From an uncultured Caulobacterales bacterium (lineage in GTDB: Bacteria > Pseudomonadota > Alphaproteobacteria > Caulobacterales > Maricaulaceae), in assembly GCA_937928165.1 (NCBI GenBank), contig CALFVT010000002.1, positions 124,001 to 188,000 on the forward strand: a stretch of 64,000 bases of DNA. Reading direction: 5' to 3'. The position numbers and the translations under genes are program-made. Under the pieces are notes generated by a model. The model saw only the letters and a program-made list of their open reading frames with translations. It was not told the DNA's origin and did no database searches. Shown here piece by piece: positions 2,854 to 19,569 of the stretch; positions within the stretch are counted from its first letter, which is position 1; each line of letters starts with the position of its first letter.

Positions 2854-3936
2854 ATGCAAATAGCGCCGCGTCTATATATTCATCAAGACTCTAAACTGAC
2901 GGCTTACACGCCGGGCGGCCGGGCGGCGCGTGGGTTTTGGTCGCCAGATGTGACCGTTATTTCGCGCCGTGATTGCGCCTTTCGCCGCCTCAAACTACCG
3001 GATGCAAGTGCCCAAGGTTTTGCCGCCTTACGTTTGCAAGCCCTCAATGAAGCAAGGCGCGGCCATGACGCGGTTTATATTCGCCCTGGGCAGGCGGGCC
3101 GCTGGGCCAATATCTGGACATATAAAACTCCGCAAGCCCTACGCGGGAAAGCCGTTCCTGAAACTGAGCTTCAAGCGCCCGGCCCAGATGGCTTACGCCT
3201 TGTCAAAGGCATATCCGGCGTAGAGGGCCAATATTGGCGCGCGGACAGCTTACTAGCCAGCCGCTGGTGGCCCGCAGCACCAAAACCTCATCAATGGGCC
3301 TCTTTTTTACAAGGCCTTGATCAAGCCGCTCTTGAAATAGACGCCGCAGAACTGCCCGCAACCCTTCCGGCTTTATCACAGCCCGAACTCAGCGGCGCTA
3401 TCCCCATTGTTACGGCTGAGAGTTTTAAAACCGGCGCATTATCCCCCAAGGCCCTATTAAAGCCTAGCCGTTTGGCGATGGGCATTGCGGCTATAAGCTT
3501 GCTATCGGTAAGCTATCTTAGCGCTCAATTTATCCATGCAAAACTGAGCCTATCACAAACCCAAAGCCAGCTTGACGCCGTATCCGGCCGCACCGGCGTC
3601 ATTATGCAAGACCGGCAAGCGGCCTTAGAAAATTTAGCATCACTGCGTGATTTTGATGTCTTAGAGCCGCGCATATTACTCTTGTCTGCTTGGGATCAAC
3701 TGGCGAGCGCCCTTGAAGGTCAGCCTGTAAAATTTCAAAGTTTTAATTATCTTAACGGTGAGATTGAAATTAAGATCAAAGGAAGTTTTACACTTTCAGC
3801 TGCGGATATTGTGACAAAAATAGAAAACCTTCCTGCCTTTGAAGGCGTAACCTTTACGCTTGAGCCTAATCAGCAATCCATCGTGAAAGCCAAGCTTATC
3901 ACGACCGCAAACACGCGCGCGGAGACAAAATCATGA
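2854..3936 (+). CDS. Type II secretion inner-membrane platform protein GspL-like (set 1)
   Basis: A 360-residue protein, close to the length of the canonical GspL of set 2 (366). The first 200 residues are soluble and should be cytosolic; one membrane segment lies at about residues 206-226; a coiled-coil-prone stretch and a small periplasmic alpha-beta domain follow. This is the layout of GspL, which anchors the GspE ATPase to the membrane and pairs with GspM. The start ATG lies seven bases after the GspK-like stop and the stop overlaps the next gene by four bases. Little direct similarity to GspL is visible, so the call rests on architecture and order; a PilM-PilN-like fusion is the same idea under another name. 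Confidence 0.6.
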   Translation: MQIAPRLYIHQDSKLTAYTPGGRAARGFWSPDVTVISRRDCAFRRLKLPDASAQGFAALRLQALNEARRGHDAVYIRPGQAGRWANIWTYKTPQALRGKAVPETELQAPGPDGLRLVKGISGVEGQYWRADSLLASRWWPAAPKPHQWASFLQGLDQAALEIDAAELPATLPALSQPELSGAIPIVTAESFKTGALSPKALLKPSRLAMGIAAISLLSVSYLSAQFIHAKLSLSQTQSQLDAVSGRTGVIMQDRQAALENLASLRDFDVLEPRILLLSAWDQLASALEGQPVKFQSFNYLNGEIEIKIKGSFTLSAADIVTKIENLPAFEGVTFTLEPNQQSIVKAKLITTANTRAETKS

Positions 3937-4529
3937 CGGCTGCCACGAATGCTTTAGCCCGCTTTGGTCAGTGGCTGGACTATAAGGCTACGCCTTTATC
4001 TGCCTATGGCTTGATTGCCTTAATTTTTCTAAGTGCTTTTTTTGGTCTTGATAAGCTTGCGCAGGCCAACCATAATTACCTATCCCAGTTAGAAACAGCC
4101 CAACAAGAGCTTGCATTATTATCCGCGATTGATGGCCAAGACATATGGAGCCAACGCAAAGATGAGAGCCGCGCCCTCAAAATTAGTTTAAATGCGGCCT
4201 TATGGCCGGGCCATACAGCCGGCGCGATTGCCGCTCAGCTTCAGCAAAGTCTTCGGCAAAAAGCAGCGGGACTAGATATGAAAAATATTCGCGTTATTGT
4301 CGATGCAGAACCGGCTGAGGTTGGAAATGTTACAGTGTTAAATTTCGAGCTTAGCGGATTACTCCCGCCCCATAAAAGCCTACATGATACACTTGCGGTA
4401 CTGGCTGAGGATAAATATAGTTTGAATGTGGAACAGGCGAGTTTGACATTCTCGCAGCGCCGGCCCTCTCTTTTACGTCTGTCGGGGATTGCACCGATCA
4501 AAATCTTACCGCCAGACGGCGGCGCATAA
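3933..4529 (+). CDS. Type II secretion platform protein GspM/PilO-like (set 1)
   Basis: A 198-residue protein whose ATG overlaps the preceding stop (ATGA). One membrane helix at about residues 22-42 is followed by a coiled-coil-prone stretch (residues 45-75) and a periplasmic ferredoxin-like alpha-beta domain, the architecture of GspM and PilO. These proteins dimerise with GspL/PilN to form the inner-membrane platform ring. Its place directly after the L-like gene fits. It is longer than GspM of set 2 (156 residues). Confidence 0.62.
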   Translation: MTAATNALARFGQWLDYKATPLSAYGLIALIFLSAFFGLDKLAQANHNYLSQLETAQQELALLSAIDGQDIWSQRKDESRALKISLNAALWPGHTAGAIAAQLQQSLRQKAAGLDMKNIRVIVDAEPAEVGNVTVLNFELSGLLPPHKSLHDTLAVLAEDKYSLNVEQASLTFSQRRPSLLRLSGIAPIKILPPDGGA

Positions 4530-4531
4530 TC

Positions 4532-5020
4532 ATGCCGCGTTTACCCATTATAATCAGTATTGGCTTTATCATTGCGGCCATTTTAGGCTGGGTCTCTACG
4601 GGCCGTGATAATATCAATCAGCGCGAGATTCGAGACCCTTGGCCAAATGAATTAACCGCAGCGCAGAACATATCGGTCAAAGATGTAGTTTCGCGGCTAA
4701 ATACTTCGGCGCTTTTTCCTAAGCTCAGTCCAGACAGCGGCGACGGCAGCAGCGCACTTGGCCCGGATGGCCGGCCTCTTAACGGCTCGCGCCAAACTGA
4801 GGCGCCGCCCTTTCCCGATATTCGCGGCGTAAGCCGCCTTGACGGCCAACCCTATGTCACTTTAGAGTTTGCTGACGGCAGCGTGAAAACCCTGGCTGAA
4901 GGCGCACAGCTCAGCTCGGGCTGGCAGTTAAAATCAGTTGACCCCAGACGCATTATTGCCACTTATGACGACGAAGAGATTACGCGCCCGGTGCGAGATT
5001 ACGCCCCGGGGCATCCTTAA
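4532..5020 (+). CDS. Type II secretion GspC/PilP-like protein without PDZ domain (set 1)
   Basis: A 162-residue protein with an N-terminal membrane helix (residues 4-21), a linker rich in Ser, Asp and Pro, and a C-terminal beta domain (about residues 95-155) that reads like the homology region of GspC or of PilP: a conserved Ile-Arg-Gly-Val strand, a turn, then a strand pair around a Gly-rich loop. That domain contacts the N0 domain of the secretin and links inner- and outer-membrane parts. Unlike GspC of set 2 there is no PDZ domain after it. It sits two bases after the M-like gene and 75 bases before the secretin gene. Confidence 0.65.
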   Translation: MPRLPIIISIGFIIAAILGWVSTGRDNINQREIRDPWPNELTAAQNISVKDVVSRLNTSALFPKLSPDSGDGSSALGPDGRPLNGSRQTEAPPFPDIRGVSRLDGQPYVTLEFADGSVKTLAEGAQLSSGWQLKSVDPRRIIATYDDEEITRPVRDYAPGHP

Positions 5021-5095: not shown

Positions 5096-7321
5096 ATGAT
5101 GATTTTTGATATGATAAAAACCCGCAAAACAACGGCTGCACATAGGCTTAAACCGCAAGGCCGGCCTTATTACCTCTGGCCTCTCGCTTTAAGTCTTTCT
5201 ACCTTCGCCATGACGGCCTGTCAGCATTTGCCGCAAAAAAACGCTGATCTGCCTCCGGCCCAAGAACAAGCCTTGGGTGACATTACCCTATCAAAAGACT
5301 TACAACGCCCCGTCCGGGCGAATAGTATCAACCGCGTCCCTCAAGGCGTTAATCAGCCCGCCAGAGAGGCCGCGCCCTCTGTTGTTGGGCGCGTTCCGGT
5401 TATCGCCCCGCTTAGCGGCGATGTCGATGAGGGCCCCGCCCAACCCATACCTCGCCCTGTAACAAAAACCGTAGAGGCGATTGTTTCGCCGTTATCTGTA
5501 CCTAAATTTCTTGATGTTGTTTTTGGCGATATGCTGCAAGTTCCCTTTGTTGTCGGCCCTGAAGTCGCCAAGCGAACAGATATCATCCAGCTTCGCTCGT
5601 CTGGAACCCTTAAGTCAGAAGACTTCCTAAGTCTTGTCACAGTCGCGCTTGAAGATTACGGCATTCGCGTTTTGCCAGATAACGGCACTTACCGCATTGT
5701 TGAAGATAAAGTTCTTTATGAGCAAATCCCACGCTTTATAAAAACACGGGCCCGGGCTTCGACCCGTGCAGATTTGCGGCCTGTTATCCAATTTATTGAC
5801 CTAAAAGCTATTGACGCCAATTCCATGGTGGCTTTTTTAACCCAAGCCTTTGGCCGAAATAACCCAAAGCTTCGGTTTAACAGTAACCCGCGCGATAATT
5901 ATCTAACCCTCACGGGATTGCCAAACGATATTCAGGCGGCTCTGGAGATCATCGACCGCCTTGATGAGCTCACCTATGCAGGGCAGCAGGTAAAACGGTT
6001 CTCGCCGCGCTATTGGAAAGTCGAAGATCTTGCAAATGCCCTAGAACGCGGCCTTGCGATTGAAGGTTGGCAGGTCACGCAAGATGAAACCCTACGCCGG
6101 GGGATTTATCTCTACCCGGTTGAATATACCAATGATCTGTTTGTTTTCACCAAAAATGCCGAGGCCCGCGAGCGGGTTGAGCGTTGGTTTACAGAATTTG
6201 ACCGCCCTGTCTCTGGCGGCGACACGGCCGAAATTTTTATCTATCAAGTCCAAAATGTAGACGCCGAAGCTTTAGCCATGACCGCCAACCGCGCCCTGAC
6301 GGGACAAATACAGGCCTTGGAGCAACAAACTCTGGCCGTTGGCGCGGAAGGGCCCGGCGGTGGGTCTGGCACTAATGAAATTTTTACGCCAGATTTAAAT
6401 GGCAACCGTATTATTTTTTCAGGAACCGCATCTGAATATGATAAATATATACGGCTTTTACAGGCCCTAGACACGCCTGTGCCCGAAGTCTTACTCGAAT
6501 TACAAATTGCGGAAATCACCCTAACAAACGGCGTGAATACTGGGGTTGAGTTTAATATTAATAATTCCGCAAGCGGCAACGTTTTTGGCGGCGGAGCGCG
6601 GACCAATAATAATATAATTGAAACCCTGGGTACCGGCGGGCTTGGGCTTGGCTCAACGGGCCTTAATATTGGCATTTTAGAGGGCGATGTGGACGCGCAG
6701 ATCAATGCCTTTGCCAATAACCGGCGCGTTAAATTCCTCTCGACACCGATTGTTGTCGCCCGCTCAGGTACCGCTGCTGAACTTCAAGTAGGGACGGACG
6801 TTCCGATTATCACCTCCCAACGGGCGGACAGCGCACAAAACGGCGGCGGCGCTTTGGATGTGTTACAATCTATTGAATACCGCTCAACCGGGGTCATCCT
6901 GTCGATTGAGCCCATTGTTTTTAGTGATGACCGTATTGACCTCACCATTAGCCAAGAGGTGTCATCGACTGTGGATACGGCTAATAGCGGAATATCAAGT
7001 CCGACAATTTCAAACCGCGCCATTAGCACGGAGCTATCCTTAGAAGATGGAGCCACAGCAGTTTTGGGGGGATTAATCCAAGAGAATGTTATCCGCTCTG
7101 ATAACGGCATACCCTTTTTTAAAGATATCCCCGTCATTGGTCAGGCCTTTTCAGCAGATGCCTATTCCATAGACCGCACAGAGCTTGTGGTTTTCATTCG
7201 TGCCTATGTTATTCGCGGTCAAGCGGACCGGGGCACATTTGTGAATGCGTTGCGGCAACGCTCAGACGCGGTGATCAATGATAATGGACGGCTTTTGACT
7301 CTGCGGCCTAAAAACTTCTAA
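5096..7321 (+). CDS. Type II secretion secretin GspD-like, predicted lipoprotein (set 1)
   Basis: A 741-residue outer-membrane secretin. The N terminus holds a basic stretch, a hydrophobic core and MTAC at residues 39-42, a signal peptidase II lipobox, so the mature protein should be lipidated at Cys42; starts at 5096, 5099 or 5111 are all possible. Repeated N domains follow (about residues 125-400), then the secretin barrel region: a VPEVLLELQIAEI strand, the Thr-Pro-Ile-Val turn, and near the end TELVVFIRAYVI. The secretin forms the outer-membrane channel. A lipidated secretin can reach the outer membrane through the Lol route without a separate pilotin, as known for HxcQ of Pseudomonas. 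Set 2 has a second secretin with an ordinary signal peptide. Confidence 0.88.
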   Translation: MMIFDMIKTRKTTAAHRLKPQGRPYYLWPLALSLSTFAMTACQHLPQKNADLPPAQEQALGDITLSKDLQRPVRANSINRVPQGVNQPAREAAPSVVGRVPVIAPLSGDVDEGPAQPIPRPVTKTVEAIVSPLSVPKFLDVVFGDMLQVPFVVGPEVAKRTDIIQLRSSGTLKSEDFLSLVTVALEDYGIRVLPDNGTYRIVEDKVLYEQIPRFIKTRARASTRADLRPVIQFIDLKAIDANSMVAFLTQAFGRNNPKLRFNSNPRDNYLTLTGLPNDIQAALEIIDRLDELTYAGQQVKRFSPRYWKVEDLANALERGLAIEGWQVTQDETLRRGIYLYPVEYTNDLFVFTKNAEARERVERWFTEFDRPVSGGDTAEIFIYQVQNVDAEALAMTANRALTGQIQALEQQTLAVGAEGPGGGSGTNEIFTPDLNGNRIIFSGTASEYDKYIRLLQALDTPVPEVLLELQIAEITLTNGVNTGVEFNINNSASGNVFGGGARTNNNIIETLGTGGLGLGSTGLNIGILEGDVDAQINAFANNRRVKFLSTPIVVARSGTAAELQVGTDVPIITSQRADSAQNGGGALDVLQSIEYRSTGVILSIEPIVFSDDRIDLTISQEVSSTVDTANSGISSPTISNRAISTELSLEDGATAVLGGLIQENVIRSDNGIPFFKDIPVIGQAFSADAYSIDRTELVVFIRAYVIRGQADRGTFVNALRQRSDAVINDNGRLLTLRPKNF

Positions 7322-7347: not shown

Positions 7348-7788
7348 ATGTTGACGCCGCATAATATCCAGCTGCATAACGGTGATAATAGCGGATTTAC
7401 AGTGCTTGAAGCTTTGGTCGCACTAGCTTTACTGGCGGCAGCCTTTATTCCTTTGATGGGGATGCAAAGCCAGTTTGTGGAGCGGATTGCCGCACAAAAG
7501 CGCCTGGAAACGCGGCTGTCTTTACAGGCGGCCCTTAGCGCACAACTCGAAGATGTAAATTTCATGCAACATCAAACAGGCCGCCTCAATGGCGCCGGAT
7601 ATTCGGCCCAATGGCAAGCTGTGCCGCGCGGCACAGCTGTTACATCGCGCCTATCAACCGGTGACCCCGCACGCTTTGATATTCAGGCCTATAATATAAC
7701 CATTCTAGCGACCTATATAGATGGTCGCCAAGAGCAATATCGCCTTCCCGGTTATGGTTGGCGGGCGAAGTGGGCGATAAACAACTGA
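7348..7788 (+). CDS. Type II secretion minor pseudopilin, GspI-like (set 1)
   Basis: A 146-residue prepilin-like protein: a 16-residue leader ending in Gly, then FTVLE with Glu at +5 and a hydrophobic helix to about residue 38, then a small soluble domain. The size and the Phe-Thr-Val-Leu-Glu-Ala start fit GspI, a tip pseudopilin. It follows the secretin gene by 26 bases and is the last gene of set 1 before a perfect AT-rich hairpin that begins inside its stop codon. No major pseudopilin (GspG) is visible in set 1. Confidence 0.7.
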   Translation: MLTPHNIQLHNGDNSGFTVLEALVALALLAAAFIPLMGMQSQFVERIAAQKRLETRLSLQAALSAQLEDVNFMQHQTGRLNGAGYSAQWQAVPRGTAVTSRLSTGDPARFDIQAYNITILATYIDGRQEQYRLPGYGWRAKWAINN

Positions 7789-7825
7789 TTTTGTATAATT
7801 TATAAAAAATTATACAAAATCTTTT
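7787..7825 (+). terminator. AT-rich hairpin terminator after set 1
   Basis: A perfect 15-base-pair inverted repeat (7787-7801 with 7807-7821) around a five-base loop, followed by TTTT. It begins in the stop codon of the GspI-like gene. The stem is weak in GC but very long, so it should stop or slow transcription from set 1 before the exported-protein gene. Confidence 0.6.
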
Positions 7826-7887
7826 GAATTTGTTGTTTTTTAGGCACAGTTATAGAGCTTATATACAGTTATGCCGCCGTTATTTGA

Positions 7888-7908
7888 CTTTAAACGCTTG
7901 ATTTAAAG
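7888..7908. promoter_or_regulatory. Inverted repeat, candidate operator
   Basis: CTTTAAA and TTTAAAG are separated by seven bases, a shape suited to a dimeric regulator. It lies 29 bases before the CtrA box and about 300 bases before the exported-protein start. A direct repeat ACAGTTAT (7846-7853 and 7865-7872) lies just upstream. No regulator can be named. Confidence 0.35.
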
Positions 7909-7936
7909 TGTTTTGGCGTGATTTGCCGCTTTTTCG

Positions 7937-7952
7937 TTAAGATTCCATTAAC
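7937..7952. promoter_or_regulatory. Perfect CtrA-box match overlapping a GANTC site
   Basis: TTAAGATTCCATTAAC matches the CtrA consensus TTAA-N7-TTAAC at every fixed position. The spacer contains GATTC, a target of the CcrM adenine methyltransferase. CtrA is the master cell-cycle response regulator of Alphaproteobacteria and often binds over the -35 region. The site is about 250 bases before the ATG of the exported-protein gene; a start of transcription near 7975-7985 would place the box at about -35. Regulation by CtrA is inferred from the motif alone. Confidence 0.6.
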
Positions 7953-7976
7953 CATGTAGAGGATAACCCCTGTTCT

Positions 7977-8083
7977 CGTATAAGTGAATTTAGGGCGCTC
8001 CGAAAGAATCGGCTAAAAAAAGCCCTTTCGAAACGATTTAGACACATGACTCGCTTGACGGGCACTATAGAGGCACTTATACG
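7977..8083 (+). promoter_or_regulatory. Foldable leader with nested inverted repeats
   Basis: CGTATAAGTG (7977-7986) and CACTTATACG (8074-8083) are perfect complements 87 bases apart. Between them is a tight hairpin: CGAAAG (8001-8006) with CTTTCG (8025-8030), enclosing GGCT/AGCC around an A6 loop. After each outer arm stands a near-identical direct repeat, GAATTTAGGGCG (7986-7997) and GAATTTCAGGGCG (8083-8095). If transcribed, the leader would form a closed multi-stem RNA before the exported-protein gene; as DNA it could be paired operator sites. Two further GANTC sites lie inside (8006-8010, 8048-8052). Confidence 0.45.
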
Positions 8084-8200
8084 AATTTCAGGGCGAGAGG
8101 TCGCGGGGGAGTTTTCTCCACGGGTAATTTAAACCTTGACCCAATCTCTCTGTGTGTGGGTTGTCCACATTTGGTTTTGAACTAACTATTGAGGAAGAAC

Positions 8201-9730
8201 ATGAAACTCAAGTCTTTACTGCTTACAGCTGCGGCTGTAACTCTTGCTGCAGGCCAAGCGTCTGCAACAGTACTAACTCCAACACCGATTTCGGCAGTGC
8301 CTGCTGGTATCGTTCCTGTTCCATTTGGAACTGTGCTTGCTAACGAGCTTGACCTCAGCGCAACAAACTCCGTTGACGGAACATTTGTTTTCGATCTAGG
8401 CCTATCATTCGGTGGACAATTACCAGCCGGTGACAACCTACTCGTCACAGTTAACCTGCCTGAAGGCCTAGTGTTCTCAAGCGCACTTAGCGGAAATGCT
8501 ATCTTTGCAGGCGGCGACGGCATTTTTGGCGGTGCAAACCTACAAAGCGGCGGTGCAGTCGGATCAGATTCAGCTGAATTCCTTGTCACGATTGACCCAG
8601 ATGCAGCCAATGCTGAAACAACGATCGGTATAGCCGTTCCTGTTTCTGTTGTGTCTTGTCCAATGTCCGGCGCGGGTATCAATGTCGAAGCTGTTCTTGC
8701 AGGTAGCGGAATTGCCATCGAAGGCATGACAAACGGCGTCACAAGTACAGGTCTATTGTCTTGCGCATCTGCGAAAAACGGTTCTGTCAGTGCTGATACG
8801 GATGACACTCTCATCTTGCTCCCTGATTACGACGCTGTAGACGGCGACGTTATTGGTGTATTGGACTTCAGAATTGGCTCTACTCCAACATTAGGAACAC
8901 CTTCGGTTGTCCCAACAATCGACTTTGCAGGTACGGCGTTTGATGCAACAGATGTTGCGAGCATGACATTCACAGTACAGTTCGAAGACCTAACAGGCAT
9001 TAACAATGTTTATCTTCGCGACGGCACATTCCCAGTTCCGGGTAATGTAATCCAGCCTGCTGTTCTCGATACAGCTGCAAACACAGCAACTTTCACAATC
9101 ACAAGTGATGCCAACCTAGCCCTCGTTCTTGACGGTGTGGCGGATCTAATCGCTTTTTCTGCCGCTGGCGGCGGGACTGCAATTGCAGCTCAATCTGTAT
9201 CCATTTCTGACGTTGTCTGTACATTTGACGATACACGCGCCGAATTTATTACGAGCGAAACATTCCCAGGGGCTGCCCTCGATTCACTCGTTCGTGAAGG
9301 TCAAGTCTTTGGTTTCTTTGACTGGAACCAAGAAGACGGCCCTGTAAATTCTGTTTACCGCATCACAGGTCTAAGCACGACAGAAGACACACCTTTGACT
9401 GTTGTGTTTGAAAATTCAAATGCGGGTCAGAACGGATCTTTCGAAACTGTAATCGCAGCTAGCGATGTAAACAACGGTGAATATGTTATCGCATCACGTC
9501 GTCAATTAGCTGACCTGAATCCAGGCTACCAGCGCGCTGACGTTCAGTTCAACTTCGAGACAACAAATGGTCTCGATGTTGACCGCTTGATCTCATCAGG
9601 TGGTGTTGTAACTGACTTTGGTGACAGCGCGAACAGAGTTGACATCTTTAATACAGATCCAGACGATCCATTCCCTATTTCTGATAGTGATAATGGTGGA
9701 AGCGGAACATCTGGTGTTGTAACTGAATAA
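8201..9730 (+). CDS. Sec-exported protein of unknown family; candidate T2SS substrate or surface protein
   Basis: Start at ATG 8201 with GAGGAAG at 8191-8197; an in-frame TTG at 8189 overlaps that ribosome binding site and is rejected. The 509-residue product begins with a textbook Sec signal (MKLK, a hydrophobic core, cut after Ala20-Ser-Ala22). The rest is acidic, rich in Thr, Ser, Gly, Ala, Val and Asp, with alternating beta-strand patterns and only three cysteines. It ends in a Ser/Gly/Asp-rich tail without a PEP-CTERM or autotransporter signature. I recognise no family. The codon choice differs from its neighbours (many ACA, GCA, GTT, CTA), as may happen in a highly expressed or acquired gene. 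It has its own 412-base control region and its own terminator, and lies between the main part of T2SS set 1 and a GspE gene. Confidence 0.85.
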   Translation: MKLKSLLLTAAAVTLAAGQASATVLTPTPISAVPAGIVPVPFGTVLANELDLSATNSVDGTFVFDLGLSFGGQLPAGDNLLVTVNLPEGLVFSSALSGNAIFAGGDGIFGGANLQSGGAVGSDSAEFLVTIDPDAANAETTIGIAVPVSVVSCPMSGAGINVEAVLAGSGIAIEGMTNGVTSTGLLSCASAKNGSVSADTDDTLILLPDYDAVDGDVIGVLDFRIGSTPTLGTPSVVPTIDFAGTAFDATDVASMTFTVQFEDLTGINNVYLRDGTFPVPGNVIQPAVLDTAANTATFTITSDANLALVLDGVADLIAFSAAGGGTAIAAQSVSISDVVCTFDDTRAEFITSETFPGAALDSLVREGQVFGFFDWNQEDGPVNSVYRITGLSTTEDTPLTVVFENSNAGQNGSFETVIAASDVNNGEYVIASRRQLADLNPGYQRADVQFNFETTNGLDVDRLISSGGVVTDFGDSANRVDIFNTDPDDPFPISDSDNGGSGTSGVVTE

Positions 9731-9750
9731 TTAATGTTCAAAACCTAATA

Positions 9751-9776
9751 AGGCGGTCTCCGGGCCGCCTTTTTTT
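9751..9776 (+). terminator. Rho-independent terminator of the exported-protein gene
   Basis: AGGCGG and CCGCCT pair around an eight-base loop and a run of T follows at once (9771-9776). It lies 20 bases after the stop. The strong terminator isolates the exported-protein gene as a single-gene transcript. Confidence 0.88.
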
Positions 9777-9897
9777 ATGCCTAAAGTTTTTCACGCGCCT
9801 CTTTGCATGACGCCGACAGACCATAATACTGACCCCAAACTCGCTTAGATATAAAATCTAGCTTGGCCCTTGTGGCCTGATAGCTTAGACGGTAGAT

Positions 9898-11613
9898 ATG
9901 ACTCACTCTCTCAGCGACCATCTTCTTAAAGATAATATCGTGACAAAAGCCGATATTGAGCAAGCCCGCCGCCTGCAAATAGAAACGGGCGGTTTGTTTT
10001 CCCATGCCCTGCTCCGGCTTGGCTCTATATCAGAAGATGATTTACTCAGCGCAGAAGCCCGTCTTTACGGCCTAGCCCGGCTAAGCCCCGCCGATCTCCC
10101 ACAAGATGAAAACCTCTATCTTGTAGCCCGCGAGAAACTTGGAATCCCTATAGACTGGCTAGCCGCAAGGCAAGTTGTTATATGGATAGACCCCGATGAT
10201 GATAGGCAAATCGGGCTTATCTCCCCTAATCCGCTTGATAGCGATATGAACGAAACCCTTGATATTCAAGCCCATGACGCCGGCTGCACGGTTAATATCT
10301 ATATTGCCCCACGGCAAGTCATCGACACCGCCCTTGAGCGTCAATCCAGCGGCGCGTTAAAACAAGATAGCGGCGAGGATTTTGACAATAACAATGCCCA
10401 GCGCCTGAGAGAAATGGCCGAAGAAGCCCCAGTTATTGATTTCGTTAATCAAATCTTCTCCGAAGCCCTGAAAGATAAAGCTTCCGATATTCATATAGAG
10501 CCTTTTGAAGACCGCTTTGACGTCCGGTTCCGTGTGGACGGCGTGCTTCACCTGAAGCAAACTCGGCCTAAAGGGCAATTTGATGCAGTCGCCAGTCGGG
10601 TAAAGCTCTTATCGGGCATGGATATTGCCGAGCGCCGCCTGCCGCAAGATGGCCGCCAAACCATAAGATTCGCCGGGCAAGATATTGATCTTCGCGTATC
10701 CTCTTTGCCGGGCTCTTGGGGCGAAAGTCTTGTGCTGCGCCTTTTAACCAAAGACAGCGAGCTTCCTGATCTTGAGGCCCTTGGACTTGAAGGCCGCTCT
10801 GGCCAAGTGTTTCAAACGCTTTTGTCACAACCCAACGGCGTCATATTAGTGACGGGCCCGACAGGATCAGGGAAATCAACTACGCTGTACCGCGGCCTAC
10901 AGGGGCTTAATGACGGCATTAAAAAAATCATCACCATTGAAGACCCAGTTGAATATGACATGGACGGCATTATTCAAATCCAAACCAATGCCAATATTGG
11001 TTACAGTTTTGCCAAGGGCCTGCGCGCTATTTTACGTCAAGATCCGGATATTATCATGGTCGGCGAGATTCGCGACGGAGAAACTGCGACGATTGCTGCC
11101 CAAGCCGCTTTGACCGGGCATTTGGTGCTCTCAACTTTGCATACAAATTCGGCCCTTGCGGCGATTGCGCGGCTTATTGATATTGGACTTGAGCCCTTTA
11201 TGATCGCATCTGCTGTGCGGGGCCTCGCCGCCCAGCGCCTTGTTCGTAAACTTTGCGCCCATTGCGCCCAGCCCGCCGCAGACCCGCAGGCCTATGAAAC
11301 CAAGCTTTGGGCCCTCATCAAAGACGGTCATGATCTCAGCCAAAGTCTATCAGGGCCGGCCCAATGGCGAAGCGCACAAGGCTGCGAGCATTGCGGCCAA
11401 ACCGGCTATACGGGCCGATTAGCTATTTTCGAAGTTGCACGCATGACTGACGATCTCGCGGACGGCGTACAGCGCGGAGATAATTTACAAACTCTTATAA
11501 GTATTGCCCGTAAAGACGGATTTTTAACCCTGCTTGAAGATGGCTTGCTTAAGGCGCGGCGCGGGGATACAAGCCTTGAAGAAATTATGCGTGTGTGCGG
11601 CGTTAAAGTTTAA
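9898..11613 (+). CDS. Type II secretion / type IV pilus assembly ATPase, GspE-like (set 1)
   Basis: A 571-residue hexameric secretion ATPase. An N-terminal helical domain (about residues 1-150, MshEN/GspE-N type, which docks on GspL) precedes the PilT-like core with Walker A GPTGSGKSTT near residue 320, the Asp/His boxes, and Walker B IIMVGEIRD. The zinc-binding tetracysteine is present as CAHC (near 453) and CEHC (near 497), as in GspE and PilB. It powers pseudopilus growth from the cytosolic face. It is not next to the seven other set 1 genes but follows the exported-protein gene; a second, different GspE lies in set 2. Which machine it serves is inferred from position: set 2 has its own E, so this one most likely drives set 1. 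Confidence 0.88.
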   Translation: MTHSLSDHLLKDNIVTKADIEQARRLQIETGGLFSHALLRLGSISEDDLLSAEARLYGLARLSPADLPQDENLYLVAREKLGIPIDWLAARQVVIWIDPDDDRQIGLISPNPLDSDMNETLDIQAHDAGCTVNIYIAPRQVIDTALERQSSGALKQDSGEDFDNNNAQRLREMAEEAPVIDFVNQIFSEALKDKASDIHIEPFEDRFDVRFRVDGVLHLKQTRPKGQFDAVASRVKLLSGMDIAERRLPQDGRQTIRFAGQDIDLRVSSLPGSWGESLVLRLLTKDSELPDLEALGLEGRSGQVFQTLLSQPNGVILVTGPTGSGKSTTLYRGLQGLNDGIKKIITIEDPVEYDMDGIIQIQTNANIGYSFAKGLRAILRQDPDIIMVGEIRDGETATIAAQAALTGHLVLSTLHTNSALAAIARLIDIGLEPFMIASAVRGLAAQRLVRKLCAHCAQPAADPQAYETKLWALIKDGHDLSQSLSGPAQWRSAQGCEHCGQTGYTGRLAIFEVARMTDDLADGVQRGDNLQTLISIARKDGFLTLLEDGLLKARRGDTSLEEIMRVCGVKV

Positions 11614-11622
11614 AAATTAACC

Positions 11623-12507
11623 TTAAGTTTTCAAGCTTTGCTGTAAAAAACTGAGCAAATATTTGCCATAGCCGCTTTTTTCAAGAGGACGAGCCAGCCC
11701 CTCTAATTGATCCGCATTAATCCAGCCCTTTTCAAAAGCAATCACCTCTGGACAGCAAATGCGGCGGCCTTGACGTTCTTCAATGACGCTGACAAATTGC
11801 GCGGCTTGCAGTAAAGATCGGTGGGTACCTGTATCGAGCCATGTGGTTGCAGAGCTTAAAAGCTCTACCTGTAGCTCCCCTCGGTCCAAATAAATTTGGT
11901 TTAGCGCCGTTATTTCAAGTTCTCCGCGCGCCGACGGCACAACCTGCCGCGCATAAGCTGGCGCATGTTCATCATAGAAATAAAGTCCCGTGACCGCATA
12001 ATTAGAGTCCGGAACAGACGGTTTTTCTTTGATAGAAATAACTTTTTTATCACGGTCAAACCCGACAACTCCGTAACGACTTGGGTTTTTAACATGATAA
12101 CCAAAGACTGTTGCGCCGACCATTTGTTGCCGAATAGATAAAAGTCGTTTGCTAAAGCTTTCACCAAAGAAAAGATTATCCCCCAAGATTAACAGGCTGG
12201 GGTGGCCATTTAAAAACCCTTCGCCAATAATAAGCGCTTGAGCGAGACCATCTGGGCTCGGCTGCACCGCATAGGATATATTCAGCCCCCATTGACTTCC
12301 GTCCTTTAGTAATTTCTGAAACGCAGCCTGGTCATGGGGGGTGGTGATAATCAATATTTCATCAATCCCTGCCTGCATAACAACGCTAAGCGGGTAATAT
12401 ATCATGGGTTTATCAAACACAGGCATAAGCTGTTTTGAGACCGAGATTGTGCTAGGGTGAAGGCGCGTACCGGAACCGCCCGCAAGGATAATTGCTTTTC
12501 TTTTCAT
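11623..12507 (-). CDS. rmlA: Glucose-1-phosphate thymidylyltransferase
   Basis: A 294-residue nucleotidyltransferase that makes dTDP-glucose from dTTP and glucose-1-phosphate, the first step of dTDP-L-rhamnose synthesis. The N terminus carries the nucleotide-binding loop GGSGTRLHPST (about residues 10-20); GDNLFFG near residue 110 holds the metal-binding Asp, and EKPSVPDSNYAVTGLYFYD near residues 160-180 is the RmlA sugar-site signature. The length matches the family. It is downstream of rmlC with nine bases between them. rmlB and rmlD are not in the window, so the pathway must be completed elsewhere. The pair sits on the opposite strand between the two secretion gene sets. Confidence 0.93.
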   Translation of the reverse strand: MKRKAIILAGGSGTRLHPSTISVSKQLMPVFDKPMIYYPLSVVMQAGIDEILIITTPHDQAAFQKLLKDGSQWGLNISYAVQPSPDGLAQALIIGEGFLNGHPSLLILGDNLFFGESFSKRLLSIRQQMVGATVFGYHVKNPSRYGVVGFDRDKKVISIKEKPSVPDSNYAVTGLYFYDEHAPAYARQVVPSARGELEITALNQIYLDRGELQVELLSSATTWLDTGTHRSLLQAAQFVSVIEERQGRRICCPEVIAFEKGWINADQLEGLARPLEKSGYGKYLLSFLQQSLKT

Positions 12508-12516
12508 AAGTTTATC

Positions 12517-13071
12517 TTAGAAGGGAGATTGGAAATCTGCAAATCTTTGTGCATTTTTATCTTTATTGGATAATATCACATTCTCGGGATCAACGCCCCA
12601 ATCAATGGCAATATCCGGGTCATTCCATAGCACAGAGCCATCGCAATCCGCCGCATAGTAATTCGTGCATTTATATTGGATATCAACATGATCTGTTAGG
12701 GTTAAAAACCCGTGGAGAAATCCCGGCGGCACCCAGAGCTGCGCATGATTATCACTCGATAATTCCGCGCTGACATATTTCCCATAACTAGCGGAGCCCC
12801 GCCGCACATCAACGGCGACATCTAAAACCTTACCCGCTATGCAGCGCACAAGCTTACCTTGGGCGTGGGGCGGGCTTTGGTAATGCAAGCCCCGTAAGGT
12901 ACCTTTTTGCAAAGACCGAGAGTGATTATCTTGGACAAATTTTAAGGATGATTTTGCCGCCATTTCAAATTCTGTTTGGCGAAAACTCTCCATAAAAAAC
13001 CCGCGCGCATCCCCAAATAATTTTGGCGTAAACAAACACGGGCCATCAACCGGAAAATATTGAATATCCAT
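12517..13071 (-). CDS. rmlC: dTDP-4-dehydrorhamnose 3,5-epimerase
   Basis: The third enzyme of dTDP-L-rhamnose synthesis; it epimerises C3 and C5 of dTDP-4-keto-6-deoxyglucose. I place the start at ATG 13071, with AGAGAGG just upstream, giving 184 residues, the usual RmlC length; an upstream ATG at 13143 would add 24 unrelated residues. The cupin core is clear: FGDARGFFMESF early, LRGLHYQSPPHAQGKLVRC with the catalytic His, and VDVRRGS after it. Divergent from gspC with about 107 bases between the starts. Rhamnose from this route normally goes into O-antigen or exopolysaccharide. Confidence 0.93.
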   Translation of the reverse strand: MDIQYFPVDGPCLFTPKLFGDARGFFMESFRQTEFEMAAKSSLKFVQDNHSRSLQKGTLRGLHYQSPPHAQGKLVRCIAGKVLDVAVDVRRGSASYGKYVSAELSSDNHAQLWVPPGFLHGFLTLTDHVDIQYKCTNYYAADCDGSVLWNDPDIAIDWGVDPENVILSNKDKNAQRFADFQSPF

Positions 13072-13178
13072 TCGCGCCTCTCTTTGGCCTTGATACTTGA
13101 CAGTTTGTATAAGAGATGTTGCAAGATAATCTCGCCTCATCATATGGCGTTAACCCTTGTATGAGAAAAGGTCAAATA

Positions 13179-14117
13179 ATGAGCGCAAGCGTAATAAAAC
13201 CAGCCGCCATAAGTAGATTCTTAGAACGGGCCGTTCTAATTTTAGCGGTAGCCCTCGGGCTGTTTTTCCTAATTCGGGCGGTTTTAACATTTATCGAGCC
13301 AAGCCGCGTTTATAAATCTGTTCTTGCAACACCGCCGGCGTCATCTGCCGCAACCAATCTTTCTGATCGCCGCATAATTATTGACCCTAGTTTTGACCCT
13401 TTTCACCGCGGACTAAATGTGGGCCCCCTCCCAGCGCAGGTTAATATTATTGGCGAGGATGCCCCCGAAACAGATCTTGATATTATTTTAAAGGGCCGCA
13501 GCGCCTCTGAAAATGGGGGTGGCAGCGCCATTTTGCGGCTGCCCGATGGGCAAGAAGCAAGCTTTAAGCAAGGGGAAACAATCTTTAAAAACGTAACCTT
13601 AGATGCCATTTATCCAAGCCACATCATTATATCACGCAGAGGAAAACAAGAGCGCGTCACATTTGAACAACGCAGCGGACTTATTACTCAAGATACGCCA
13701 AAAACCTCACCAAATAATCGCCGAGAGATTGAGCCCGTGCAAAGCCCCATATCGGCCGCTCCCACAAGCCTTGCAGACGCCAAAGAAAAATTCCGTAACT
13801 ATCAACCTGGCCCGAAAAAACCTAATACAAAAGCCTTTTATACTGGCCAAAACACACAAGATATATTAAGCGCCGCGCGGCCATCCCCCGTGCGCAAAGA
13901 TGGGCGCTTTATTGGTTACCGCCTGCGCGGCAGCGGCGAGGTGTTAAGCCAATTTGGTCTTGAATCTAAAGATGTCATCACGCAAATAAACGGTCAAAAC
14001 TTACCACAGCAAATTTCAAACCTACCTTCACTTTTTGAACAAATCAGCCAAGATCCATCTAATTCAACCTTTACCGTCGAGCGAGACGGACAAATCCTTG
14101 TTTTATCTGCAAATTAA
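13179..14117 (+). CDS. gspC: Type II secretion protein GspC with PDZ domain (set 2)
   Basis: I start it at ATG 13179 (AGG just upstream); two earlier in-frame ATGs at 13116 and 13161 have no ribosome binding site. The 312-residue product has a membrane helix at about residues 17-37, a periplasmic homology-region domain (about residues 85-165) that binds the secretin, a Pro/Asn-rich linker, and a C-terminal PDZ-like domain (about residues 235-312, GRFIGYRLRG ... DVITQINGQ). The PDZ domain of GspC takes part in substrate selection. First gene of a complete 12-gene operon. Confidence 0.88.
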   Translation: MSASVIKPAAISRFLERAVLILAVALGLFFLIRAVLTFIEPSRVYKSVLATPPASSAATNLSDRRIIIDPSFDPFHRGLNVGPLPAQVNIIGEDAPETDLDIILKGRSASENGGGSAILRLPDGQEASFKQGETIFKNVTLDAIYPSHIIISRRGKQERVTFEQRSGLITQDTPKTSPNNRREIEPVQSPISAAPTSLADAKEKFRNYQPGPKKPNTKAFYTGQNTQDILSAARPSPVRKDGRFIGYRLRGSGEVLSQFGLESKDVITQINGQNLPQQISNLPSLFEQISQDPSNSTFTVERDGQILVLSAN

Positions 14118-14231
14118 CACAGCGATCCGATTAAAAGACCGACAGAATTAGGTAATATGTTTAATCTGCATCTAGGCGTAGCGCATTTTAGCTGTCATAA
14201 ACATTACAAGCTGATATGATATAATAAACCG
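14118..14231. other. Spacer between gspC and gspD
   Basis: 114 bases. An AT-rich GATATGATATAATAAACC stretch just before the gspD start includes a TATAAT-like hexamer, so a second promoter within the operon is possible; no good -35 match was seen. Confidence 0.25.
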
Positions 14232-16190
14232 ATGAATACTCCATATAACATTAAAAATAGGCTTCTTATGCGCCGTCCACTACAGACGATTAAACGCCAA
14301 GTTTTCAAACCTTTAGCCGTATCTGCCTTTGCGCTTACGGCGCTGCTCTCCCCGCTCATGGCCAAGCCGGTATTTGCGCAATCCGGCGGCCATTTAATCA
14401 CGATGCAAGATGCTGATATAAAGGCCTTTATTGAAGATACCTCAAGCATTACCGGAAAATCATTTATTGTCGACCCGCGCGTCCAAGGTAAAGTCAATAT
14501 CGCCTCTGAACAAAGACTGTCTAAAAATGAAGTCTTTCAAGTCTTCAAAGAAGTCATGCGGGTGAATAATTATACGGTTATCCCCACAAATAGCGGGGAA
14601 TACCGCATTACCCTTACCCAAAACGCCGCCCAAGAAGCCCCGCTCGCCTTTAAAAACGGTGTCAGCGGCCAATTATCAACGGTCATTCTTAGCTTGCAAA
14701 ATGAAGACGCCGCCGAAGCCGCCAAACTAATCCGCCCGGTTGTTCATGCGCAAGGCCGGCTTGCGGCCAATCCCGGTGGGCGCGTTGTGATTATCACGGA
14801 TTTTCCGGAAAATATCGCTAAAGCCCGTGCCATTATTGCAGCCATAGATCAAGATAAGCAGCAATTTGAAACTGTGCAGCTCTCCCATCTCTCTGCTCTT
14901 GAGGCCGAATCAGCCCTCAGAACCCTACAAGGAGCGCGGCCTGATATTAGTATCGTTGCCGTGCCCGCAACAAATTCTATTATCATGCAGGGCAGCCGGG
15001 CCTCTTTGGATAAATTAAGACCGGTCTTAAGCGCCCTTGACCGCCCGCGCAGCCAGCAGCGCTCTAATGTCTCAATCATTCCTCTACGCTTTGCAGATGG
15101 TGAGAATATCTTAAATGTGCTGACGACACTTTTGCCGGGTTATACGGTTGAAGGCGCGCCAGCGCCAAGCGTCGCCCTTGAAGTCGGCAGTAATTCTATT
15201 ATTATTAACGCCCTGCCAGAGGTTCAAGACGCCATGGCCGGAATTATTCGCCAGCTTGATGAGCGCCGCCCGCAAGTTTTGGTCGAAGCTCTCATTGTTG
15301 AGATTTCAGACCGCGCGGCCCGTGACCTTGGCGTACAGCTTGGAGTGGCGGGAACCAATGGCTCAAATATTCCGCTGTTAACCACTAATTTCAGCCGTAA
15401 TGCCCCAAATCTTTTAGCCTTGACCGGCGCGCTTGCAGGGCCGGGGCTTGGGCTTACGGACGGCATTCAAGGCGGACTTGAAGATGCCGCCGTCAGCTCG
15501 CTTTTAGGCATTAACGGCCCGACTGCCGGCTTTGCATCCCAAGGCAATGACGCTATATTTTCCGCGATTATTACCGCCGTCGAAACCGATACGGATTCAA
15601 ATATTTTATCAACGCCCTTTGTCACAACACTTGACAATGTCCCCGCAAGCCTACTTGTCGGTCAAGAGATTCCGATTACGACGGGGGAGACCCTCGGCGC
15701 AACCAATATCAACCCGTTCCGGTCTTTTGAACGAAAAGACGTCGGGATTAAGCTCGATATCACCCCGCAAATCAGCGATGACGACACCATCCGCCTTGAG
15801 ATCAAACAAGAGGTCTCAACCATTGCCGGCGCCTTAAGTCAGGCCAGCACCCTCGATCCGATTACCAATCAGCGCAATATCGAAACCACAGTGCTCGCCG
15901 ATGACGGCGAAATTATTGTGCTCGGCGGACTTTTGCAAGATGATGACCAAATCAGCGCCGAAAAAGTACCTTTGCTTGGAGATGTCCCAGTGCTTGGAAA
16001 TTTATTTCGCTCCCGCAGCCGTACCCGCACAAAAACAAATTTAATGGTATTTCTGCGTCCAACAATCATTCGTTCCGCAGATGATGCGCGGCCTTTGACA
16101 GAATATTATCTGGAGCAGGGCCGTAAACTCGATCTTGAGCAATCGGGGCGAGATATTTCTAAAATCGATTCGATCTTACCAAAGCGCTAA
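14232..16190 (+). CDS. gspD: Type II secretion secretin GspD (set 2)
   Basis: A 652-residue secretin. A long N-terminal signal peptide ends around VFA-QS near residue 50 (start at ATG 14232, or ATG 14268, which would give a signal of normal length); there is no lipobox, unlike the set 1 secretin. N0 (GHLITMQDADIKAFIEDTS), N1-N3 repeats follow to about residue 340, then the secretin domain with VLVEALIVEIS, the LSTPFVTTLDN turn, VGQEIPITTG and the C-terminal LMVFLRPTII. It forms the outer-membrane channel of set 2. No pilotin gene is visible beside it. The next gene starts five bases after the stop. Confidence 0.95.
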   Translation: MNTPYNIKNRLLMRRPLQTIKRQVFKPLAVSAFALTALLSPLMAKPVFAQSGGHLITMQDADIKAFIEDTSSITGKSFIVDPRVQGKVNIASEQRLSKNEVFQVFKEVMRVNNYTVIPTNSGEYRITLTQNAAQEAPLAFKNGVSGQLSTVILSLQNEDAAEAAKLIRPVVHAQGRLAANPGGRVVIITDFPENIAKARAIIAAIDQDKQQFETVQLSHLSALEAESALRTLQGARPDISIVAVPATNSIIMQGSRASLDKLRPVLSALDRPRSQQRSNVSIIPLRFADGENILNVLTTLLPGYTVEGAPAPSVALEVGSNSIIINALPEVQDAMAGIIRQLDERRPQVLVEALIVEISDRAARDLGVQLGVAGTNGSNIPLLTTNFSRNAPNLLALTGALAGPGLGLTDGIQGGLEDAAVSSLLGINGPTAGFASQGNDAIFSAIITAVETDTDSNILSTPFVTTLDNVPASLLVGQEIPITTGETLGATNINPFRSFERKDVGIKLDITPQISDDDTIRLEIKQEVSTIAGALSQASTLDPITNQRNIETTVLADDGEIIVLGGLLQDDDQISAEKVPLLGDVPVLGNLFRSRSRTRTKTNLMVFLRPTIIRSADDARPLTEYYLEQGRKLDLEQSGRDISKIDSILPKR

Positions 16191-16195
16191 ATCTT

Positions 16196-17776
16196 ATGAA
16201 CCGCCCCGATAATATATCACGTGATAAATCACAAGATATACCGGCCCCAAGCGGCGGGCCAGACGAGCCTACCGCGCGGCCAATACGCAGGTTATCTTAT
16301 GCTTTTGCTCGGCAATCGGGCGTTTTGCTTGTACCTAGCCCATCCGGGCCGCAGCTATATTTCCGCGCTGGGCAAGGCCGACCCATCGCCGCGCAATTTG
16401 ACGCTTTACTTGAAGCCCGCCGCATAGCCGGCGCGAACTTAACCCCTGCGCCGCTCCCGCCCAGCGAATTTGAGAATATCCTCGCCCAGACCTATGCCCA
16501 AGGTGATTTATCCGAAACGATTGAAGACGCCATGGATCAGCCCGATAGCCTCGCCTCGCTTGCGGATACCTTGCCGGCGACATCTGATCTGCTCGATAGT
16601 GATGACGATGCCCCCGTTATCCGCTTGATTAACGGGATTATGCAGGAAGCTATTCGCACCCGGGCCTCTGATATTCATATTGAGCCTTTTGAAACTCGCC
16701 TCGCAGTTCGTTTTCGTATTGATGGTAGCCTACGCGATATGCTCTCCCTCGCACCGCGCCTCGCCTCTGTTTTGGTCAGCCGCGTTAAGGTTATGGCAAA
16801 GCTCGATATTGCCAAAAAACGTATCCCCCAAGACGGGCGCTTCTCGCTTAATTTGGGCCAAAAAGCCATTGATGTGCGGGTGTCGACCTTACCGTCCCAA
16901 TATGGCGAACGGGTAGTGATGCGGATTTTAGAAAAAGATTCCATGCGCTTATCCCTGTCTGATTTGGGCATGCAGGCAGATGTACTTGACGGGTTTAGCG
17001 CCGCTATCCGCCGCCCCAATGGTATTTTACTGGTCACAGGGCCCACGGGCTCTGGTAAGACGACGACCCTATACGCGGCCCTATCCCAGCTAAATGACGG
17101 CTCGCGTAATATCCTCACCGTCGAAGACCCAGTAGAATATGCGCTGGACGGGATTGGCCAGACCCAAGTTAATAATAAAGTTGGCATGAGTTTTTCCGCC
17201 GGGCTGCGGGCCATATTGCGCCAAGACCCGGATGTGGTCATGGTCGGTGAAATCCGCGACCCTGAAACCACAGAGATTGCCGTCCAAGCCGCTCTAACTG
17301 GCCACCTTGTGCTCTCGACCGTCCATACAAATTCGGCGATTGCCGCGATTCCGCGCCTGCGCGATATGGGTGTTGAGGCCTTTTTACTCGCCTCGACCAT
17401 TACAGGCATTGCCGCCCAGCGCCTTGTGCGCCGCCTTTGCCCCCATTGTAAAGCGCCAGATGATTTACCTGCATTAACCCGTAAAGAACTCGGCTTACCG
17501 GCGCGTAAAACGCTCACGACCTTTAAAGCTATTGGCTGCGGGCACTGTAATAATATTGGTTATGAAGGCCGGCTTGGGCTTTATGAATATGTGGAAATGG
17601 ATGATGTTCTGCGCGATATGATTCACACGGGGGCCTCCGAAACAGAGATGTCGCAACATGCGTTTAAATCCCGGCAAACCCTTTTACAAAGTGGGGCCGC
17701 CCATATTTTAGCCGGCGAGACCACCGCCGATGAAGTGCTGCGCGTCTGCCGGGCAAAATCTCTTGAAGACACATAG
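16196..17776 (+). CDS. gspE: Type II secretion ATPase GspE (set 2)
   Basis: A 526-residue secretion ATPase. The N-terminal region is shorter than in the set 1 GspE. The core has HIEPFETR, Walker A GPTGSGKTTT near residue 282, the Asp box around TVEDPVEY, Walker B VVMVGEIRD and the His box LSTVHTNSA. The zinc tetracysteine is CPHC (near 414) plus CGHC (near 448). It supplies ATP-driven force for pseudopilus assembly through GspL and GspF. In operon, five bases after gspD and nine before gspF. Confidence 0.95.
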   Translation: MNRPDNISRDKSQDIPAPSGGPDEPTARPIRRLSYAFARQSGVLLVPSPSGPQLYFRAGQGRPIAAQFDALLEARRIAGANLTPAPLPPSEFENILAQTYAQGDLSETIEDAMDQPDSLASLADTLPATSDLLDSDDDAPVIRLINGIMQEAIRTRASDIHIEPFETRLAVRFRIDGSLRDMLSLAPRLASVLVSRVKVMAKLDIAKKRIPQDGRFSLNLGQKAIDVRVSTLPSQYGERVVMRILEKDSMRLSLSDLGMQADVLDGFSAAIRRPNGILLVTGPTGSGKTTTLYAALSQLNDGSRNILTVEDPVEYALDGIGQTQVNNKVGMSFSAGLRAILRQDPDVVMVGEIRDPETTEIAVQAALTGHLVLSTVHTNSAIAAIPRLRDMGVEAFLLASTITGIAAQRLVRRLCPHCKAPDDLPALTRKELGLPARKTLTTFKAIGCGHCNNIGYEGRLGLYEYVEMDDVLRDMIHTGASETEMSQHAFKSRQTLLQSGAAHILAGETTADEVLRVCRAKSLEDT

Positions 17777-17785
17777 GCCGCCTTT

Positions 17786-19012
17786 ATGGACGCCTTTGAT
17801 TATATCGCCATAGACGCCTCTCAGGCCCGTAAAAAAGGCACAGTCTCGGCCCGCACAGCTCGGGACGCCCGCGCCGCCCTGCGTGGCCGCGGACTTAAAC
17901 CCATATCCATTAGTCTTGCCAAACAAAACCGAAAGACCGCCGCCCAAAGCGAGGAGGGCTCCCAAGCCGTAAAAAGTAAAATCTCCCATAAAGACCTGAC
18001 CCAAGCGACGCGGCAATTAGCGATATTAATTGATGCGGGCTCTCCCATCGAAGACACATTACATGTCACCGCCCAGCAATTTGACCGCTCCCCTATGCGC
18101 CAGCAGCTTTTATTTGTTCGCGGGCAAGTGATGGAAGGGGCGCGGCTATCAACAGCCATGAAAGCGGCGGGCGGAACGTTTCCGGATTTATATACGGCCA
18201 TGATCGCAGCGGCAGAAACCTCCGGCCAACTTGCGCCTATCCTTGAACGGCTCGCCGATGATATGGAGGCCTCACAAGCTATTCGCCGTAAAATCACGGC
18301 GGCGATTGTTTACCCTATTGTGCTATCGATTGTCGCCATATTAGTTGTGGCCATTATGATGGTAGCTGTGGTTCCAAAAGTTGTCTCTCAATTTGAAAAT
18401 TTCGGCCAAGAACTACCCTGGCTCACCCGCGCTGTTATCGCGGCATCTGGGTTCCTTCAGGCTCATGGGCTTTTAATTTTAGGATTACTCGCCGCCTTTA
18501 TTTTTGCCTTTCGCTTTGCCCTTCGTACAGAAGGGTTTAAGCGGCGATGGCATAAAGTTTTGCTGAAACTACCCCTCGCAGGCAAACTCATACGCAGTAT
18601 TAATGCTGCACGGTTTTCACGCACAATGTCAGGGCTTCTCGCCAGCGGAACTCCGGCGCTAAACGCCATGGAAACCGCTCGTTTTACGTTACAAAACCTA
18701 CCCATGCGCGACGCCGTGAGCCATGCTTGTGAAAAAGTGCGCGGCGGCATGGCCGTGAGTAAAGCCTTAAAACAAGACGGTGTTTTCCCGCCGCTTGTCG
18801 TGCAAATGATTGCAGGCGGAGAGGCCAGCGGCGATATTGGCCAAATGTTTAGCCGGTCTGCTGATTACCTTGAAGGTGAGTTTGAAAGCTTTATATCCAT
18901 CTTTCTTGCCCTATTAGAGCCGCTGATAATTATACTTCTTGCGGGTGTCGTGCTATTGATTATTGGCGCTATTTTCTTGCCTATCTTAAAATTAAATAGC
19001 TTAATTGTATAA
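17786..19012 (+). CDS. gspF: Type II secretion inner-membrane platform protein GspF (set 2)
   Basis: A 408-residue polytopic protein with two T2SSF domains (about residues 72-195 and 275-400). Membrane segments are clear at about 170-195, 222-243 and 375-402. The N-terminal 60 residues form the usual cytosolic start (FDYIAIDASQARKKGTV). GspF is the platform core that rotates or shuttles pseudopilin subunits, driven by GspE. It is the only GspF in the window, so set 1 must either use this one or a gene elsewhere. Confidence 0.95.
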   Translation: MDAFDYIAIDASQARKKGTVSARTARDARAALRGRGLKPISISLAKQNRKTAAQSEEGSQAVKSKISHKDLTQATRQLAILIDAGSPIEDTLHVTAQQFDRSPMRQQLLFVRGQVMEGARLSTAMKAAGGTFPDLYTAMIAAAETSGQLAPILERLADDMEASQAIRRKITAAIVYPIVLSIVAILVVAIMMVAVVPKVVSQFENFGQELPWLTRAVIAASGFLQAHGLLILGLLAAFIFAFRFALRTEGFKRRWHKVLLKLPLAGKLIRSINAARFSRTMSGLLASGTPALNAMETARFTLQNLPMRDAVSHACEKVRGGMAVSKALKQDGVFPPLVVQMIAGGEASGDIGQMFSRSADYLEGEFESFISIFLALLEPLIIILLAGVVLLIIGAIFLPILKLNSLIV

Positions 19013-19024
19013 ATGACGGAGACC

Positions 19025-19564: not shown

Positions 19565-19569
19565 CCCGT

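Follow-up and report, generated by a model that had tools for sequence, protein, structure and literature searches.

A candidate dedicated substrate of a type II secretion system in an uncultured Caulobacterales bacterium, and the portable C-terminal domain that it carries

What is the role of an exported protein of no recognised family whose gene lies in the middle of a set of secretion genes? This question is raised by a stretch of 64,000 nucleotides (hereafter the window) from an uncultured bacterium of the order Caulobacterales (Alphaproteobacteria; Maricaulaceae; assembly GCA_937928165.1, contig CALFVT010000002.1, positions 124,001 to 188,000 of the forward strand). The open reading frame in question, here called P0001, occupies 8201–9730 on the + strand, with its ATG at 8201 and its stop at 9730, and encodes 509 amino acids. 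It is flanked by two genes of a type II secretion system (T2SS) that we call set 1: that of an N-methylated GspI-like pseudopilin (7348–7788, +) on one side and that of the T2SSE (GspE) ATPase (9898–11613, +; PF00437, E 5e-131) on the other. A preliminary description of the window had pointed to just such an exported 509-residue protein between GspI-like and GspE-like genes, preceded by a good ribosome binding site, and each of these features was confirmed on re-analysis, the last as the Shine-Dalgarno sequence AGGAAG at 8192–8197 (+).

We consider it probable, though well short of certain, that P0001 is a resident, dedicated substrate of set 1 which most likely forms, or contributes to, an S-layer-like surface coat. 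That P0001 would be cargo of set 1 is well supported by the distribution of its gene among genomes; that it would be a lattice or coat protein we infer from analogy with characterized systems.

Association of the P0001 family with the set-1 machinery

A first search of 61 related genomes, which scored few candidates per genome, found homologues of P0001 in seven. Secretin matches with E < 1e-130 occurred in these seven P0001-positive genomes and in one other (G029), where a diverged P0001 homologue adjoining GspE was recognised on later inspection. An order-wide census covered 398 genomes, a sample of the order that consists mostly of metagenome-assembled genomes (MAGs). Secretins of the set-1 type were set cleanly apart from other secretins (E ≤ 8e-71 versus ≥ 1e-53) and were present in 50 of the 398. 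A profile of the P0001 family matched 23 genomes and a profile of its C-terminal domain (CTD) matched 30, with a union of 32. All 32 carry a set-1-type secretin, and none of the 348 other genomes gave a match; P0001 was thus found with, and only with, its cognate secretion genes. The probability of placing 32 of 32 positives within 50 of 398 genomes would be about 1e-34 if the genomes were independent, and shared ancestry makes this value much less extreme. The preliminary description had proposed a substrate that travels with its exporter, and this distribution strongly supports the proposal.

Most of the genes are found within the set-1 cluster or directly beside it. The listed coordinates put no more than about 15 kb between gene and set-1 secretin in 24 of the 32 positive genomes, the exceptions being genus g6, genomes G145 and G368, and the fragmented genome G298. 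The P0001-family gene also keeps its adjacency while the order of the set-1 genes is rearranged. Mean identity within the P0001 family is 23%; the secretin stands at 39% and GspE at 55%, and the distances are correlated. The family thus diverges more rapidly than its secretion machine, which is what one would expect of an exposed protein.

Among 318 genomes from across the class, the genome of the window itself was the sole one with the CTD, and just two genomes from other orders had a set-1-type secretin. In Rhodothalassium salexigens, which belongs to another order, a homologue can be found between the secretin and GspE, with its frame broken in the draft sequence. A scan of GTDB contigs with patterns from the N-domains of the set-1 secretin gave matches in Robiginitomaculum MAGs, in a Hellea MAG and in two further MAGs of uncultured Caulobacterales, as well as in R. 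salexigens and in a MAG labelled as Phycisphaerales, and weak matches in Burkholderiales. The Phycisphaerales-labelled contig (JAESUL010000265.1; locus L072) carries a close set-1 secretin and a P0001 homologue, and is probably mis-binned. No relative turned up when GTDB contigs were scanned with peptide patterns from P0001, an approach for which the family has presumably diverged too far, and a single-sequence tblastn search of P0001 against plasmids gave no match.

Predicted architecture and the C-terminal domain

P0001 is present as a single copy in its own genome, and its N-terminus, MKLKSLLLTAAAVTLAAGQASA followed by T, reads by eye from the translation as a typical Sec signal peptide (residues 1–22, 8201–8266, +, with a putative AxA site before T23), that is, as an export signal of the kind that type II substrates carry. 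Homologues begin with the same type of signal. The mature protein has a mass of 49.5 kDa and a pI of 4.05, with one lysine and no histidine. P0001 and its relatives had no matches in Pfam, NCBIfam or the PDB sequences, and the family profile had none in the PDB.

An AlphaFold2 model built with 24 family members reached a mean predicted local distance difference test score (pLDDT) of 77; with 8 rows the score was 51 and the model unusable. The model comprises three beta-sandwich domains and an acidic, low-confidence tail, all encoded on the + strand: domain 1 (approximately residues 25–200, 8273–8800), domain 2 (approximately residues 203–343, 8807–9229), the CTD (approximately residues 352–475, 9254–9625; pLDDT of the block mostly 76–95) and the tail (9626–9727; pLDDT < 50). 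Foldseek placed immunoglobulin (Ig)/beta-sandwich surface proteins, namely streptococcal AgI/II and PrgB, among the best matches of this model. Matches to viral structures resemble the weak background that beta-sandwiches commonly give and were set aside.

The CTD, which forms the last ~120 folded residues, is a separate domain that has no Pfam entry (consensus FGPFDWVGD...SxFRITGL...GRADVxFxF...DRL...GxxTDFG). It is also found on other passengers. Four tandem copies occur in genomes G162, G233 and G283; the array follows a Peptidase_S8 domain in G162 and in one protein of G233, and Ig-like domains in a second G233 protein. Further tandem-CTD frames of the same kind are only partly sequenced. 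G145 has fusions in which a P0001-like region follows either a Big_12 domain or repeats. The genes for these multi-domain proteins mostly lie at a distance from set 1, and all of their host genomes own a set-1 secretin.

This distribution has the pattern of a sorting module or of a surface-retention module, between which the data do not separate. Since the domain is common to subtilases and Ig-like proteins of set-1 genomes, it probably serves in recognition by set 1 or in incorporation or retention at the surface. The CTDs of type IX secretion systems (T9SS) and the PEP-CTERM signals offer a parallel, as they are also C-terminal modules on unrelated passengers that are limited to genomes with one export system. 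The CTD of P0001 differs from PEP-CTERM in having no transmembrane segment or basic tail, and in having a T2SS as its partner machine; the NCBIfam models for PEP-CTERM, GlyGly-CTERM and T9SS CTDs matched neither P0001 nor 24 family members. A broader scheme can be put forward only tentatively: the CTD would be a new portable signal for targeting or surface retention, set 1 would export any protein that bears it (coat protein, subtilases and Ig-like proteins alike), and the sulfotransferases, methyltransferases and glycosyltransferases of these loci would modify either the cargo itself or the surface glycan by which it is held.

A proposed surface coat and its alternatives

Three described S-layer proteins that are exported by a T2SS share the layout of P0001 and its secretion genes, and because of this a surface coat, which the preliminary description had already suggested, is the best-supported functional reading. 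The A-layer protein VapA of Aeromonas salmonicida (~49 kDa) is exported by a dedicated T2SS, Sps, encoded within rhamnose-making O-antigen genes, and the Aeromonas A-layer T2SS genes adjoin an ORF with a sulfotransferase domain that has no known target (PMC4483657). Compared by description only, VapA and P0001 are alike in size, dedicated T2SS, rhamnose genes and sulfotransferase gene. They differ in that the P0001 gene lies inside its T2SS cluster with sulfotransferase genes leading the operons, and in that an array and lipopolysaccharide tethering are established for VapA only. NpdA of Paracidovorax and its relatives is a Sec-exported protein of 52 kDa and ~500 amino acids with no known domains, and its gene adjoins a 12-gene T2SS (PMC10765051). 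We found NpdA homologues adjoining a T2SS in eight Comamonadaceae-type loci, and one of these, in Simplicispira (L088), resembles the P0001 locus further in having Wzm/Wzt-type O-antigen exporter genes close by. Slr4 of the marine bacterium Pseudoalteromonas tunicata (57–59 kDa, no Pfam domain) is encoded directly beside a T2SS operon in a conserved neighbourhood (PMC7821379); again by description only, it is predicted to be beta-helical and forms a square lattice, whereas P0001 is predicted to consist of three beta-sandwiches. The P0001 gene, like the genes of all three, adjoins a dedicated or putatively dedicated T2SS. P0001 represents a new sequence family with a new portable domain in an arrangement that is itself known.

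A hint from the pattern scans that the set-1 secretin might be specially close to the NpdA-type secretins did not hold, as the NpdA secretins group with generic T2SS rows on the secretin tree (in which one generic row, canon_G021, probably in the wrong reading frame, was ignored). The surface coat protein RsaA of Caulobacter, from the same order, leaves the cell by a type I secretion system as a repeats-in-toxin (RTX) protein; P0001 carries a Sec signal, gave no Pfam match to RTX and does not belong to the RsaA family. The rsaA gene is confined to some Caulobacteraceae and rsaA-type S-layers are reported absent from the other Caulobacterales families (PMC12700997), for which a coat exported by a T2SS would thus be a novelty.

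In the sequence of events that we propose, P0001 would be made with its Sec signal peptide, and its three beta-sandwich domains would fold in the periplasm. The folded protein would then reach the cell surface by way of the set-1 secretin and would there most likely form or join an S-layer-type coat, working like VapA, NpdA or Slr4, and the CTD would act as a portable module for set-1 recognition, or for incorporation or retention at the surface.

Several observations weigh against P0001 as a dedicated coat-forming substrate. Homology to NpdA was rejected (hhalign probability 2.7% at full length and 0.2% for the CTD), so the likeness is one of working principle and not of family membership. 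The Foldseek matches are structurally weak (TM-score ≤ 0.28) and tell us about the class of fold alone, and codon use, which had been read as a sign of high expression of P0001, does not establish it. No clear P0001 homologue was found in 18 of the 50 set-1 genomes, and in genus g6 the P0001-family gene is unlinked to set 1 while the set-1-type secretin is kept. At the loci of family f4 that were read, the place of P0001 is taken by genes for a subtilase, a protein like multicopper oxidases, SCO1/cytochrome c, and an extracytoplasmic function (ECF) sigma/anti-sigma pair, as annotated with Pfam in G170 (L138:11529-17817) and partly in G149 (L140:10926-17313); a set-1-type T2SS is therefore not confined to P0001. 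Finally, several P0001-family copies are broken or stopped in frame, from which it follows that the protein is not essential everywhere.

Some of these exceptions can be described further. Five other loci (L137, L139, L144, L163 and L136) resemble those of G170 and G149, and together these f4 loci may represent a second substrate regime. Copies with an in-frame stop, frameshift or decay can be found in G283 (L160:12705-14207), R. salexigens (L080:12480-14040) and G374 (G374:C2:12704-12960), where either error or genuine on-off variation could account for the damage. Genome G034 has at least two near-identical P0001-family copies (L021:19279-19710 and L022:1-432, also G034:C48 and C49), which end at contig breaks, are unlinked to set 1, and are possibly recombining or variant copies.

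Among the alternatives, the one that survives best also makes P0001 a set-1 substrate: it would be a secreted or surface-tethered protein of the adhesin or matrix type, with Ig-like domains, and would be released or bound via the CTD. We regard this as possible but rather unlikely. It draws on the best Foldseek matches, which are to surface proteins of the adhesin type with Ig/beta-sandwich folds (AgI/II, PrgB, Bap and pilins), on the CTD modules of Ig-like proteins and subtilases, and on G001, where two different P0001-family copies lie in tandem inside one set-1 cluster (L018:8665-11770). However, the family is generally represented by one resident gene whose size varies rather little, in the window with a terminator of its own and a strong ribosome binding site, and the layout fits S-layer loci and not typical adhesin loci.

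It is less probable still that P0001 assists set 1 as an accessory protein in the periplasm or outer membrane, such as a pilotin-like, secretin-stabilising or glycan-binding partner. An accessory would give identical strict co-occurrence and linkage, but we know of none built as a fast-evolving protein of ~50 kDa with beta-sandwiches and no lipobox. Subtilases and Ig-like proteins encoded outside the cluster moreover bear repeats of the same CTD, as cargo would, copies are unlinked in g6, and the set-1-type machines of f4 presumably work without P0001. That P0001 merely sits in an outer-surface island of O-antigen, sulfotransferase and T2SS genes and is exported by another route is very improbable: rmlA/rmlC, sulfotransferase and glycosyltransferase genes do surround set 1 here and elsewhere, but the unlinked genus g6 still keeps a set-1-type secretin, no positive genome is without one, and CTD proteins encoded far from the island follow the same set-1 rule.

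Organization of the locus and implications

The preliminary description had placed P0001 under the cell-cycle regulator CtrA and had suggested a role at a given cell-cycle stage, neither of which our analysis supports. One palindromic TTAA-N7-TTAAC motif lies upstream of the gene (TTAAGATTCCATTAAC, 7937–7952), and this motif occurs 44 times genome-wide as against 33 times for the reversed control, close to background. It is weak and is not kept in homologues: an exact TTAA-N7-TTAA was found upstream of just two of the 23 examined, at different positions. P0001 thus shows no conserved promoter-region CtrA box of the kind that marks members of the regulon, and the proposal of CtrA control is best abandoned.

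Terminators had been proposed on both sides of P0001. On the 3′ side a strong Rho-independent terminator with a 9-bp stem and a T run was found at 9750–9771 (+). The 5′ candidate, at the GspI stop (7787–7821), is a perfect 15-bp inverted repeat that is almost pure A+T; it is therefore not a classical terminator, and the label would be a guess. Given the 411-bp leader spacer and the 3′ terminator, transcription of P0001 as a single gene is plausible. The long leader (7950–8200, +) folds somewhat better than shuffled versions of itself (z −2.35) and had no match in Rfam. The codon choice of P0001 does stand out strongly (third among 315 genes in distance from the mean), with ACC, CCC and CGG wholly unused, but it is an ambiguous sign of expression: the genes nearest in codon choice are a mixture that includes island-like genes, DnaK correlates at just 0.29, and rpsL, tuf and fusA, the proper highly expressed reference, were not found in this assembly.

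The rightward operon of set 1 opens with a sulfotransferase gene (343–1116, PF13469) and continues, all on the + strand, with a GspJ/H-like pseudopilin with an N_methyl match (1178–1879), GspK (1851–2846, PF21687), GspL-like (2854–3936) and GspM-like (3933–4529) proteins assigned by position and set-1 orthologues with no Pfam hit, a GspN/C-like protein assigned by position (4532–5020) and the GspD secretin (5096–7321, PF00263), followed by GspI, P0001 and GspE. GspG, GspF and a prepilin peptidase are encoded on the divergent side of set 1, beyond the window (L038). Adjoining GspE on the − strand are genes for an RmlA-like nucleotidyltransferase (11623–12507, PF00483) and the dTDP-4-dehydrorhamnose 3,5-epimerase RmlC (12517–13143, PF00908). 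These two genes alone part set 1 from a second, canonical-looking T2SS (set 2, 13116–20073).

Both divergent set-1 operons open with a sulfotransferase-type gene, at 343–1116 in the window and, by a weak match, at L038:11509-12225; the two lie back to back, ~120 bp apart. The former is the sole PF13469 gene found in its genome at E ≤ 0.001. In 14 of 18 set-1 genomes a PF13469 gene lies within 25 kb of the set-1 secretin, where 1.3 would be expected from gene numbers; the distance was picked after the loci had been seen, and this linkage is therefore a strong trend and not a clean test. Methyltransferase and family 2 glycosyltransferase (GT2) genes also recur at set-1 loci. Sulfation of the cargo or of a surface glycan could potentially be part of the pathway.

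How type II systems select their substrates has long been a question, since no signal common to these substrates is known. The CTD occurs on unrelated passengers and in genomes of one T2SS lineage only, which opens substrate choice to a direct test in which the domain is grafted or removed. If the CTD is indeed the address, this would be a type II system with a recognisable, modular address. The similar layout of sulfotransferase, T2SS and coat genes in Aeromonas (PMC4483657) suggests a common, unstudied modification step. If P0001 forms a coat, the Caulobacterales outside the Caulobacteraceae would have an S-layer of a different kind.

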